A stretch of DNA of 34,410 bases from Patescibacteria group bacterium (GTDB taxonomy: Bacteria > Patescibacteriota > Minisyncoccia > Phycocordibacterales > DATDWN01): the NCBI GenBank assembly GCA_013816135.1, contig JACDEV010000009.1:1-34410 (forward strand). Direction: 5' to 3'. The notes beneath the pieces are model-generated. The model searched no databases. It saw only the letters and a program-made list of their open reading frames with translations, and was not told where the DNA came from. The position numbers and the translations under genes were made by a program. Below, in pieces: positions 2,033 to 31,283 of this stretch; the first letter of the stretch is position 1, and each line of letters begins with the position of its first letter.

Positions 2033-2782
2033 ATGTCTAACGATACGATTGCTAAAAATGAAATTGCAAGTCAGCGAAATGCTCTCGTTCCGACAAATCC
2101 GTCGGTAATGAAACTTGCGAAGCGTCTTCGATGGAGTCCTGAACGTGCGATTATCAGGATTCAGCGAGCATTACCTGCTCTATTCGAACAGCAGATCTAT
2201 CTCGAGCTCGCTTCCGACTTCGGCATCTTGCCGGAATCTATGGCAAAGCTTCTCCGTTTTTACATGGGAGAAGAAGAACTCGATTTGGAAGATTTGGAGT
2301 TCAGACAGGCAGGTAATAACCTGGTCACATCTAAGTTCGTGGACTTCGCGGAGTTTCTTCGAGAATGTCTCAATTTGCTCAAGATTGTAGCTAAAGAATT
2401 CACTTCGTTTTCTTTGACTGTTAACCACGCTGCAATGATTGTGTACCACTACGGGACTGATCAACCCGAACTGTTGATCGAGATGGTAGACGGTAACCTT
2501 GAGGAACTGTGTGAAGTGCTCGGCGTAAACAATGAGCACCCTTACAGTCAGCGGATGCGACTGTGCATCTGGCTTATGGTTACTAAAGTCATCCCTGAAA
2601 ACCGTTCGGAGGGTCGGCCGGACTTCCTCGACATCAGCGACATTTTGTCAATCTCTTCGGCTCGTCGACGCGCTCTGCGTCGTGAGCTTTTGGAAGATTT
2701 ACCAGACTACTTGTCAGCTGACAGCGACGAACTCCGACACCATCCATCGCTCGAGACGTTGAAAAAGGAGGGAATAATCTGA
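2033..2782 (+). CDS. hypothetical protein, first gene of a two-gene operon with the J-domain-like protein
   Basis: ATG at 2033 preceded by TTTGGAG; the longer ORF from GTG 1982 would begin inside the promoter. TGA stop overlaps the next ATG at 2782. GC-richer than neighbouring genes. Confidence 0.8.
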   Translation: MSNDTIAKNEIASQRNALVPTNPSVMKLAKRLRWSPERAIIRIQRALPALFEQQIYLELASDFGILPESMAKLLRFYMGEEELDLEDLEFRQAGNNLVTSKFVDFAEFLRECLNLLKIVAKEFTSFSLTVNHAAMIVYHYGTDQPELLIEMVDGNLEELCEVLGVNNEHPYSQRMRLCIWLMVTKVIPENRSEGRPDFLDISDILSISSARRRALRRELLEDLPDYLSADSDELRHHPSLETLKKEGII

Positions 2783-3948
2783 TGGACGCGTTTACCAAGA
2801 GCCTCAAGATGGCTTTGGGTCAAGGATCGACAAGTTGGGACATAAACCCGCTTATTGTCATCGGCCTTACTGAAGCCATGCTCGATCTTCGTCTTTCGGA
2901 GGACCAGATGTATGCGGCTGTTCACAGTTATGTGCGCCAGCTGGCAAGTCAGGTTCATCCCGATCGTACTCAATCGACAAACGTATCCGAAGAACGTCGA
3001 CGGCAAATCTTCGATGCATTCGAAATCCTCGATGATCGCGGCAAGTTCTTGCTGGCACTCGCTGAATTCCGGTCACTCAAATCGAGTGACCGGAATGAGG
3101 TGAATATCCTGCGAGGAGCCTTGCATACTGCGAGGGAACGTCTCAATGCTTATCAAGGCAAAGAAGTCTACCTTTCGCAGGGTGCGAGTAAACTTACTCG
3201 TCAGCGAGAGGAGTTCGAAAAAGAGGAGAAGAAACGTAGGCAAGTTGAACCAAACCTCCGAGCTGAGGTTTCTCGCCTTACGCGGCGAGTTAAGCGTTCT
3301 GAGAAAGCTGCTGCTGATAGGGAAAAGAAGTACAACAAAAGTGTTTTTTATGTAACTTCATTAGGTTCCAGTAAACCTGTACAACCTATAAATGGTGCGG
3401 TACATGTATTTGATGCTCAATGGGTAGCTATCACCTCACTTGTTTCGGCTAGAATCATGAAGAATGATTCAAGCTTGCTATCAGGTCAGTTGGAATTAGA
3501 TGTTCTTGATGAATCCAGTCGGTTTGAGCTAAGGATAAGAAAAGTTCTGAAGTCTATCGGGGCTTCGGAAGCTATCGCTCCAAGTATTCTCAAACGCTGG
3601 GCAGACTGTGCGGCAAAAGTTGGAACTGCCGAATTTAGGGAGTTTCGAACAAACTACTGTCTTCGGCTCAGTATGTTCGAAATATCTGCAGGAAGGCCTA
3701 AATTCATATATGGCTGGGACAAAGCAATTACAGGGCGAATCCTTGGGTCACTTCCACCCGATGGTGTAGAGATCGTTCGGCGTCAGCTAACGAATGTGGT
3801 TGAAAGAGAGACCACGTTGGAGACGATGTCGCCCTACCTGGTTCCCGGTGGACTTCTGGTTTTTCAAAGCAAGAGAAACTATACAGGCGAGGAAGGTCGA
3901 GACACTGTAGTGTTTGACTCAAAACAGATTATCCTAGGAGTTGGATAA
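2782..3948 (+). CDS. J-domain-like (DnaJ-like) coiled-coil protein with unknown C-terminal domain
   Basis: N-terminal ...AAVHSYVRQLASQVHPDRTQSTNVSEERRRQIFDAFEILDDRGKF carries an HPD tripeptide and J-domain-like helix pattern, followed by a charged coiled coil; SD GGAGGG upstream. Confidence 0.72.
   Translation: MDAFTKSLKMALGQGSTSWDINPLIVIGLTEAMLDLRLSEDQMYAAVHSYVRQLASQVHPDRTQSTNVSEERRRQIFDAFEILDDRGKFLLALAEFRSLKSSDRNEVNILRGALHTARERLNAYQGKEVYLSQGASKLTRQREEFEKEEKKRRQVEPNLRAEVSRLTRRVKRSEKAAADREKKYNKSVFYVTSLGSSKPVQPINGAVHVFDAQWVAITSLVSARIMKNDSSLLSGQLELDVLDESSRFELRIRKVLKSIGASEAIAPSILKRWADCAAKVGTAEFREFRTNYCLRLSMFEISAGRPKFIYGWDKAITGRILGSLPPDGVEIVRRQLTNVVERETTLETMSPYLVPGGLLVFQSKRNYTGEEGRDTVVFDSKQIILGVG
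3066..3096. repeat. in-frame perfect inverted repeat inside the J-domain-like gene
   Basis: ATTCCGGTCACTC-aaatc-GAGTGACCGGAAT: 13-bp perfect arms, 5-nt loop. Confidence 0.85.
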
Positions 3949-3994: not shown

Positions 3995-4023
3995 AAGGCC
4001 CGTGCAGAAATGCCGGGTCTTTT
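3995..4023 (+). terminator. intrinsic terminator of the J-domain-like operon
   Basis: AAGGCCCG-tgcagaaatgc-CGGGTCTTTT. Confidence 0.65.
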
Positions 4024-4050: not shown

Positions 4051-4079
4051 TAGACAAACTTTATATCACAGAGTAGTAT
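4051..4079 (+). promoter_or_regulatory. promoter of the candidate ncRNA
   Basis: TAGACA 4051-4056, 17-nt spacer, TAGTAT 4074-4079; predicted start falls at about 4086-4087, the first base of the terminal helix. Confidence 0.65.
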
Positions 4080-4086
4080 TAATTTT

Positions 4087-4306
4087 GGAAAAGGAAGGGA
4101 GATAGCTCTGCTAAAACCAGACCACAACGCTCGGGGATTTCCGGTTTCTTATCCGGATTGAAAGAGTGAAAAACTATGGTTTAGCCAGTCGATTGGGACA
4201 CTGCGATAGTCCGACATAGTCTACCTTTACCGAGGGGCCTTAGGGCTTAAAAGACTTCTATGGGCCTGGTAATCCATAGCGTAGGGGTGTTCTAGACCCT
4301 TTTCCA
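4087..4306 (+). ncRNA. candidate structured non-coding RNA, family not recognised
   Basis: Terminal helix GGAAAAGG (4087-4094)/CCTTTTCC (4298-4305). Internal helices GCTAAAaCC/GGTTTAGC, CGCTC/GAGTG, CTATGG/CCATAG, GGGT-GTTCTAG-ACCC. Dedicated promoter and terminator; no convincing ORF. Confidence 0.65.
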
Positions 4307-4308
4307 CT

Positions 4309-4338
4309 GGCGGTCAATTGTAAGATTGACCGCCTTTT
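4309..4338 (+). terminator. intrinsic terminator of the candidate ncRNA
   Basis: GGCGGTCAAT-tgtaag-ATTGACCGCC-TTTT, perfect 10-bp stem plus U tract. Confidence 0.85.
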
Positions 4339-4347
4339 CTTATTTAC

Positions 4348-4376
4348 TTGCAATTTTGAGCCATTTTTTGTAGTAT
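4348..4376 (+). promoter_or_regulatory. rplU promoter, near-leaderless
   Basis: TTGCAA-N17-TAGTAT; -10 ends 9 nt before the ATG at 4386. Confidence 0.6.
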
Positions 4377-4385
4377 GTGAGGACT

Positions 4386-4700
4386 ATGTTTGCAGTTATA
4401 AAAACAGGCGGAAAGCAATATAAGGTCTCAGCTGGAGATACACTAAAAATTGAGAAAATCACTGGTGATTTCAAGGTAGGAGATAAAATCGTTTTTAACG
4501 AAGTGATGCTTGTTGCAGGGGATAAAGAAACAACTATTGGTACTCCTCTTGTAGCCAAGGCTTCAGTTGAAGGAACACTTGAAGAAGTTGGACGAAATAA
4601 AACAGTTGAAGTTATAAAATACAAGCAAAAGAGCAGATATTTCAAGAAGAATGGTCATAGGCAACCTTGGTTCAAAGTTAAGATCTCAGGTATCAAATAA
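4386..4700 (+). CDS. rplU: 50S ribosomal protein L21
   Basis: MFAVIKTGGKQYKVSAGDTLKIEKI...KYKQKSRYFKKNGHRQPWFKVKISGI; ATG 4386 preferred over the ORF-track start at 4377. Confidence 0.97.
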   Translation: MFAVIKTGGKQYKVSAGDTLKIEKITGDFKVGDKIVFNEVMLVAGDKETTIGTPLVAKASVEGTLEEVGRNKTVEVIKYKQKSRYFKKNGHRQPWFKVKISGIK

Positions 4701-4740: not shown

Positions 4741-4953
4741 CTATAAATGAGTATGGCGAATTTTGGCAAAATTCTGAAGTAGCCAGTCTACTTGACTATC
4801 GCTAAATCCAGCCTCCTTCGCCCTTTCTTTGAACTTTATTTCTGCTTCCTTCTTTGCTTTCTCTTCGTCTCTTTTTCTTTCCCGATTCATCTGACCTTCA
4901 ATCCTATTTAAAGTTCGACGACTGACTGGACGTACAATCCCAACTCTTCTCAT
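4741..4953 (-). CDS. hypothetical small basic/charged protein (70 aa)
   Basis: ATG preceded by AAGGAGG SD; TTGAAA-N17-TACTTT upstream; terminator downstream. Confidence 0.7.
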   Translation of the reverse strand: MRRVGIVRPVSRRTLNRIEGQMNRERKRDEEKAKKEAEIKFKERAKEAGFSDSQVDWLLQNFAKIRHTHL

Positions 4954-5040: not shown

Positions 5041-5220
5041 CTATTGGACTCTTGCTTCTGCTTCCTTTTGTGTGCCAAGAAAGTTTAGCCACATTCTTTC
5101 AGCAACAGCCGGAGTTGTGCCATTTTGAAGCGTTGCTTCGATGAATGTTTCTTTTTGTCGCCGAAGCTGTCCTTCACGGATGATTTCTTCTTGACGTTTG
5201 TCTTCTGAGATAAATGTCAT
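5041..5220 (-). CDS. hypothetical small protein (59 aa)
   Basis: MTFISEDKRQEEIIREGQLRRQKETFIEATLQNGTTPAVAERMWLNFLGTQKEAEARVQ*, not in the supplied ORF track; strong SD CGGAGGGATC-ATG. Confidence 0.65.
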   Translation of the reverse strand: MTFISEDKRQEEIIREGQLRRQKETFIEATLQNGTTPAVAERMWLNFLGTQKEAEARVQ

Positions 5221-11035: not shown

Positions 11036-11039
11036 TTTC

Positions 11040-11231
11040 GTCGAATATATATTTTTTAGACACGTATAAATCGCTGGTGCGATTTTACTATGCTCGGATA
11101 TCAAGAAAACAATCTCCTAACTACTTAGCCCTTTCGCAAACTCGCTTCGCTCAAACAGTGCTTCGGTCTTTAAGTAGTTTGATTGTTGTTTTCTAATATC
11201 CTTTGCAATGTCTCAAAAATACATACTCGAC
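11040..11231. repeat. nested inverted-repeat element (MITE-like or large RNA hairpin) between ctpA-like and rplI
   Basis: Outer arms 11040-11062 (GTCGAATATATATTTTTTAGACA) and 11209-11231 (TGTCTCAAAAATACATACTCGAC), 20/23 complementary; inner arms 11096-11127 and 11171-11201; side hairpin AAATCGC-tggt-GCGATTT at 11068-11085. Confidence 0.75.
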
Positions 11232-11260
11232 TCCAAATGGGGTTGTGGTAATATGTTCGT

Positions 11261-23271: not shown

Positions 23272-24156
23272 ATGAGTGATTTAGAAAAACCATCTTTCGA
23301 TTATGAAGATGAAAATGATTTATTTAATAAAAAGTTTGAACTAAAAAAACTTGAATCTCATGGGACTGTGGTTGAATATGTTGATTTAATACCAGATAAC
23401 TCAGAATCAAACCCAGTTTTTTTAGCTCCTGGTTGGGCTGAAACACCAGAAACTTTTAAGGAAACCATAAAAACTATTTACAACTCTTGAAGAAGAATTG
23501 TATCTATAAAACATTCAAGTAAGAGAAGTAACTCATCTGATGATGGTCTAAGTTTAGAGATTCAGAAATCTGAAGCAATAACTGATGTAATAAATAAGAT
23601 AGGGATAGAAAAAGTATTGGGGGTAGGTCATTCGGAAGGTTGCATCAATCTTTTGCTCGCAGTTGAAAAAAATCCGGAAATATTTTCTAATATTATTTTG
23701 GTTGCTCCGGCAGGGTTGACTGGTCCAGATGGTTTTTTCTATATAATAGGCAGATTTCTTAAGAGTATCAAAGAATCAGATGAGAAAAATCTATATTATA
23801 ATGAAAAAAGTCAAAGGGTAATCACAACAATAAAAGAGACAAGTAAGTATCTAGTAAAAAATCCAACTAAGTCTTTTGGGGAAGTTTATGAAATATCTCA
23901 GAGTGATACTGTGGAATTATTAAAAAAGATACATGACATGGGCGTAGGAATAAGTATTATTCACGGCACTGAAGACGGTGTTTTTTCAATGGAAAAAATG
24001 CAAAATATAGTTAGCGCTGGGATAGTAGACGGTTTTTATTCAGTATCAGGTGATCACAATGAAATTTTTGTTTCTCCCGACAAATATGCCAAGTTAACAA
24101 TTAAGGCTGGTGAAGATTTAGAAAAAAGAAAGAAAGATGAATACAAAAAAGTCTAA
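23272..24156 (+). pseudogene. alpha/beta hydrolase interrupted by an in-frame TGA
   Basis: ORF 23272-23490 continues in the same frame after TGA (23488-23490) into ORF 23617-24156: ...ETIKTIYNS*RRIVSIKHSS...GVGHSEGCINLL (GxSxG elbow). Confidence 0.75.
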
Positions 24157-24798: not shown

Positions 24799-25011
24799 CT
24801 AGTGTACTCTGCTGTTTTCGTATACCTTATCAAGATCATGCAAGAGCTTAATCTGCTCATCTTCAGTTGAATCCGTGTTTGACAAAGCTTCCTCCAGTTC
24901 TGATCGGTAATACCCCTCAACATCCTTTATATTCAAACCTTTTTCGCTGAGAATTTTACTTAACTCTCGCATCATATCTAGGACAAGTTCTGTTCTTCGA
25001 TCATCAGTCAT
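24799..25011 (-). CDS. hypothetical small acidic helical protein (70 aa)
   Basis: MTDDRRTELVLDMMRELSKILSEKGLNIKDVEG...; SD AAGGAGTTG; preferred over overlapping ORF 24687-24923. Confidence 0.65.
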   Translation of the reverse strand: MTDDRRTELVLDMMRELSKILSEKGLNIKDVEGYYRSELEEALSNTDSTEDEQIKLLHDLDKVYENSRVH

Positions 25012-27733: not shown

Positions 27734-27994
27734 CTAGTCGAGTCGGATTGTCGAACCTTTCAGCACTCCGGAACAGACCGTTCCAGTGACTGTTTTTCCG
27801 GTTGGTCCTTTGGCTCGGAAACCGGTGTGGAAAGCATCATCTTCTGAACAGGAGAAGGCCTTGTAGCCTGTCCAGGTGATGTCGGTGTATCCAGCGCCTG
27901 TCAGAGCACGCTTTGCGTCTGATTCAGATGTGCATGCCGACGACCCTAACACCAGAGCGAGCGTGAGAATGAAAAGAGCAATTCTGAATTTCAT
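27734..27994 (-). CDS. small secreted/lipoprotein-like protein, likely horizontally acquired
   Basis: Signal peptide MKFRIALFILTLALVLGSSACTSES; SD TTGGAGGACTG-ATG; promoter TTGACT-N16-TATAAT. Confidence 0.8.
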   Translation of the reverse strand: MKFRIALFILTLALVLGSSACTSESDAKRALTGAGYTDITWTGYKAFSCSEDDAFHTGFRAKGPTGKTVTGTVCSGVLKGSTIRLD

Positions 27995-31061: not shown

Positions 31062-31283
31062 TTAGTTCTGTACCTTCATGAACTTCGTGGTGTTGTACAG
31101 TCTCGGTGAGCCGTCGAAGTTTTTCTGGGGTGGACCATCGAGATCTCTACCCAGAATTGCCCCTCCGTGCACTTCGTCTAAAGCCTGCACAACAACATCC
31201 AGAATCAAACGTCCGAGCCCGATCTGAACGACTTGCTGAAGTCGATCGCCGCGCGCAACGGTCTCACCTGTGATTGTTTGCAT
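31062..31283 (-). CDS. hypothetical small protein (73 aa) inserted in the cell-wall gene cluster
   Basis: SD CAGGAGG before ATG; promoter TTGCTA-N16-TAAGAT; GC-rich relative to neighbours. Confidence 0.65.
   Translation of the reverse strand: MQTITGETVARGDRLQQVVQIGLGRLILDVVVQALDEVHGGAILGRDLDGPPQKNFDGSPRLYNTTKFMKVQN

Follow-up and report, generated by a model that had tools for sequence, protein, structure and literature searches.

We propose that the stretch between ORF2 and rplU, the gene of ribosomal protein L21, in one Patescibacteria-type genome carries a stand-alone gene for a non-coding RNA, specific to this lineage and forming the 3′-end of a cassette that was acquired between rmuC and rplU, a reading that we judge to be about evenly balanced between right and wrong. 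The genome, assigned to the Patescibacteria (CPR) type by its size and gene content, comprises 789 kb in 27 contigs and is 98% complete. The candidate RNA lies on contig C2, within a stretch of 34,410 nucleotides that was analysed as a whole and is called the window below. The cassette would consist of ORF1, the J-domain protein gene ORF2, and the RNA, inserted together between rmuC and rplU (Table 1). Transcription would begin at G4087 and end, about 250 nt later, at the downstream hairpin. The ends of the predicted RNA would pair as a closing helix, its 5′-part would form a long hairpin domain, and its 3′-half would adopt no single well-defined fold. Most likely, such an RNA would act in trans as the accessory small RNA of the cassette, although this role is a guess. 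Whether the stretch encodes a functional structured RNA at all is close to an even call, and at present it stands as an unproven single-genome candidate.

Table 1. Features of the rmuC–rplU insert and of the candidate RNA gene, in window positions.
Feature	Position	Strand	Description
ORF1	2033–2782	+	Opens the insert; ~249 aa, with TTGGAG ahead of its ATG start
ORF2	2782–3948	+	388 aa; weakly matches the J-domain (DnaJ), with HPD motif; start overlaps the ORF1 end
Intrinsic terminator of ORF1–ORF2	3995–4021	+	Hairpin of -16.6 kcal/mol, z -4.57, followed by T's
Promoter-like TAGACA-N17-TAGTAT	4051–4079	+	9/12 consensus matches; chance frequency in the region
Candidate non-coding RNA	4087–4305	+	GC 0.484; contig GC 0.364
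Closing helix, 5′ strand GGAAAAGG	4087–4094	+	Folding and shuffles
Closing helix, 3′ strand CCTTTTCC	4298–4305	+	Folding and shuffles
5′ hairpin domain, three stacked helices	4110–4185	+	z -3.1 / -3.05
Intrinsic terminator	4309–4338	+	Perfect 10-bp stem plus T tract (hairpin 4309–4334)
rplU promoter TTGCAA-N17-TAGTAT	4348–4376	+	Sequence, and similar promoters in relatives
rplU (ribosomal protein L21)	4377–4700	+	Conserved downstream gene, outside the RNA unit

The gene layout supports a non-coding transcription unit apart from rplU. The stretch is flanked by ORF2 and rplU, and stop codons break all six reading frames, none of which is open throughout. One terminator precedes the element and another follows it, the conserved rplU promoter lies further downstream, and the element is absent at rplU in relatives, which supports a separate unit and not an L21 leader, in agreement with an earlier reading made from the sequence alone. 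The perfect 10-bp hairpin plus T tract and the separate rplU promoter described in that reading are both present. The latter recurs in related genomes, where a -35 element TTGCAA or TTGCAT and a TATA-like -10 element are found upstream of rplU at the equivalent place. The same reading had placed a promoter ahead of the closing helix and the transcription start at its first G. The hexamers TAGACA (4051–4056) and TAGTAT (4074–4079) are indeed separated by 17 nt, with G4087 seven bases further downstream, but four promoter-like sites were found in the region against 4.2 expected, and the match is therefore no better than chance. The -10 hexamer TAGTAT is common to this site and the rplU promoter. 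Judged as a stand-alone RNA gene, the stretch has clear terminators on both sides and a promoter match at the chance level.

The succession of promoter, structured RNA, terminator, and gene is also the classic order of an attenuator. The stretch might then be a cis-acting rplU leader, in which transcription from the promoter at 4051 would yield a folded leader with the downstream hairpin as a regulated attenuator. We regard this as very unlikely, because a promoter of rplU itself lies beyond the hairpin and has an equivalent in relatives, the element stands at rplU in none of them, and neither the L21 leader nor any other cis-regulatory family matches the stretch.

The predicted fold of the candidate RNA supports part of the structure proposed from the sequence. 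The 5′-end GGAAAAGG and the 3′-end CCTTTTCC form the anticipated closing helix, starting from the first G, over 8 bp with a pair probability of about 1. Among mononucleotide shuffles, 0.06% showed Watson-Crick pairing over 8 bp between their 14-nt ends, and with G-U pairs allowed, the closing helix was matched in 2.5% of dinucleotide shuffles. The proposed long helix GCTAAAaCC/GGTTTAGC, which encloses CGCTC/GAGTG and the TCCGG/CCGGA hairpin, is also probable, with pair probabilities of mostly 0.7–1.0 and of about 0.45–0.67 around the bulge. The 5′ domain comprising these helices is more stable than its shuffled counterparts at z about -3, a value for a sub-segment picked after looking. The 3′-half folds at the level of shuffled sequence (z about 0), and the stability of the whole RNA minus its terminator is not unusual (z -0.75). 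The z-score of -2.49 for 4088–4338, which includes the terminator, therefore rests largely on the terminator hairpin.

Two further hairpins of the sequence-only reading fared poorly in the same models. The helix CTATGG/CCATAG has a pair probability below 0.25. CTATGG is present twice (at 4174 and 4258), and both copies compete for one CCATAG. The T-arm-like hairpin GGGT/ACCC, which had been thought to stack on the terminal helix, likewise stays below 0.25. Its ACCC strand (4296–4299) overlaps the 3′ strand of the closing helix at C4298–C4299, and since these two bases are common to both, the full T-arm and the full closing helix are mutually exclusive. The full combination, as proposed, costs 6.3 kcal/mol relative to the minimum free energy structure. 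The proposed fold is thus only half supported: the predictions bear out the 5′ domain and the closing helix, whereas the T-arm together with the 8-bp closing helix, and the 3′ hairpins, are inconsistent or no better than chance.

In favour of an RNA gene stand the terminator of the upstream operon, the promoter-like site, the downstream terminator, the separate conserved rplU promoter, the rarity of the closing helix among shuffles, the stable 5′ domain, the broken reading frames, the raised GC content of the RNA and of the insert ORFs, and the short or differently filled gap in relatives. Against it stand the chance-level promoter match, the ordinary stability of the RNA without its terminator, and the absence of homologues wherever they were searched for. 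The latter points, together with the ordinary folding of the 3′-half, the confinement of the stretch to one genome, and the unrelated inserts at the same site in relatives, would also suit filler sequence or a non-coding remnant of the insert that lies between two ordinary terminators and pairs by chance. The RNA gene has its main rival in such a chance or decaying stretch. We consider this rival possible, if on the unlikely side, given that the rare closing helix takes up precisely the interval from the inferred start to the terminator, and that a second terminator directly follows the RNA when that of the upstream operon is already in place.

The candidate RNA gene occupies the 3′-end of an rmuC–rplU gap of about 2.4 kb, which also holds ORF1 and ORF2, whereas in many relatives, with nothing inserted, rmuC ends 61–143 nt before rplU. 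The ORFs of the insert have a GC content of 0.47 against 0.36–0.38 in the flanks, and the GC content of the RNA is comparable to that of the RNase P RNA (0.444) and tmRNA (0.402) of the genome. ORF1 belongs to no recognisable family, and the match of ORF2 to Pfam DnaJ (E 5.6e-5) is below the curated cut-off. Neither ORF matched a defence, phage, or RNA-binding family, and relatives of the two were likewise absent from all genomes and viral contigs that were searched, which left no route to homologues of the RNA through its neighbours. The contents of the gap, among them various small genes, differ between relatives, suggesting that insertions at this site turn over frequently. On the basis of the GC-rich gap contents, the two ORFs without relatives, and the variable content of the site, we take the RNA unit to be part of a lineage-specific insert, which was probably acquired.

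As the RNA, ORF1, and ORF2 share one insert, one strand, and a similar GC content and are jointly absent from relatives, they could constitute one functional RNA-protein system, e.g., a mobile or defence cassette. This appears rather unlikely to us: the RNA has a promoter-like site and a terminator of its own, the ORFs match none of the defence, phage, and RNA-binding families, and their single-sequence AlphaFold models (mean pLDDT of 42 for ORF1 and 39 for ORF2) were too poor for use and were set aside. It is very doubtful that the structured RNA of 220 nt, the J-domain protein, and the second protein of no known family form an undescribed RNA-protein cassette that moved as a unit into the rmuC–rplU site.

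Across relatives (L038–L066), the rmuC–rplU gap ranges from 61 to 1001 nt, the larger gaps measuring 180 to 1001 nt. In a genome of another family of the order (L059, G025), the gap contains a 109-nt element on the minus strand (1983–2091) with a perfect 9-bp closing helix, GACAGAGGG/CCCTCTGTC, and a z-score of -4.65. A promoter-like sequence lies ahead of it and a hairpin with T's, resembling a terminator, behind it; it has no Rfam match. This element folds much better than the candidate RNA and may be the better non-coding RNA candidate. In a member of the same genus (L038, G007; minus strand), the rplU promoter and start codon are separated by an insert of 193 nt that is rich in hairpins and has paired ends GAACTT/AAGTTC and no Rfam match at the gathering threshold.

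The sequence-only reading had suggested collecting homologues of the RNA, and had named the absence of homologues or of covariation in relatives as what would refute it. The former is largely what we observed, as homologues were absent in every search. BLAST with the RNA against 61 and then 397 genomes of the order, the latter set covering most available members of the genus and family, returned only the window and short chance matches, and 287 genomes of the phylum gave only short chance matches besides the window. A single-sequence covariance model of the RNA, whose sensitivity is uncalibrated, found only the window and two weak matches among the 397 genomes, and a more sensitive run on 39 genomes produced weak matches only, which were partial, poorly paired, or over ORFs. 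No relatives of the RNA were found in phages, plasmids, and viral contigs or by a 19-mer scan of genome contigs. Our literature search found nothing on such an RNA in this lineage. Since homologues are absent from all these searches, the structure and function of the candidate are unproven.

The individual matches were all rejected on inspection. The best BLAST match (G023, E 0.001) lies inside a gene resembling trigger factor, and the 17 nt matched in three viral contigs, whose flanks bear no resemblance, are roughly what chance would give. Of the two weak covariance-model matches, L072 (G067) appears to be located in unrelated genes, and L073 (G049) is unrelated sequence adjoining an IS200-type transposase. 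L078, L079, and L081 are weak or partial (12–20 bits) and pair poorly; L078 runs over ORFs, covering among others the start of one of 417 aa, and the match of L079 extends over 50 nt only.

The other long gaps of the window have no sequence in common with the gap of the candidate RNA. One of them (11036–11260) contains several imperfect inverted repeats (CTCGCTTCGCTC-like palindromes) and resembles a repetitive intergenic element. Several small ORFs of 59–86 aa stand alone between conserved genes, at 4741–4953, 5041–5220, 24799–25011, 27734–27994, and 31062–31283 (minus strand). Two of them reside in gaps of 44–45% GC, compared with 36% overall, and the two that were tested gave no family. At 23272–24156, an alpha/beta-hydrolase-like gene (weak match to Pfam Hydrolase_4) is interrupted by one in-frame TGA at 23488–23490, which is a nonsense mutation, a sequencing error, or a recoding site.

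The sequence-only reading could not match the candidate to tmRNA, RNase P, SRP, or 6S RNA and recommended an Rfam scan that would also include raiA. Rfam 15 gave the same answer, with no family in the whole window at gathering thresholds; when matches with E up to 10 were admitted around the stretch, all were at the chance level, and raiA was found at neither setting. ARAGORN detected neither a tRNA nor a tmRNA. There was also no covariance-model match to tmRNA (RF00023) or tRNA-like domain at this place, and none to RNase P RNA (RF00010); the tmRNA (101.7 bits) and the RNase P RNA (104.2 bits) of the genome are encoded on other contigs. Neither SRP RNA (RF00169) nor 6S RNA (RF00013) matched anywhere in the window or the genome. 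The small SRP RNA (RF00169) was thus not detected in this 98% complete genome (G000), although a control search finds it in most reference genomes.

The two missing families leave room for the idea that the candidate is a housekeeping RNA, either SRP RNA or 6S RNA, in a copy too divergent to be recognised. This is extremely unlikely, as a housekeeping RNA should be kept within the genus, whereas the element is absent from all relatives searched, and the sensitive scans gave not even a weak SRP or 6S match. The predicted fold is branched, unlike the 6S rod with its central bubble, and tmRNA and RNase P RNA are accounted for elsewhere in the genome.

If transcribed, the stand-alone RNA gene proposed here would add an orphan structured RNA to a lineage for which our searches of the literature returned no report of such RNAs. 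It also points to a site at which small cassettes are swapped among relatives, with at least one of them (L059) also resembling an RNA gene. Like the L21 leader and other ribosomal-protein leaders, the candidate RNA lies just upstream of rplU; unlike them, it terminates before a separate conserved rplU promoter and is absent at rplU in relatives. The closing helix and a 3′-end hairpin recalling a T arm are reminiscent of tmRNA and tRNA-like RNAs, but the candidate T arm clashes with the closing helix, and its loop lacks the T-loop consensus. The raiA motif is a stand-alone bacterial structured RNA with a closing helix and an intrinsic terminator. Whereas the candidate has no Rfam match at E up to 10, is found in one genome only, and offers no homologues from which covariation could be read, it resembles the raiA motif and similar stand-alone RNAs in its length of about 200 nt, its paired ends, a promoter-like site and a terminator of its own, and a predicted multi-domain fold.
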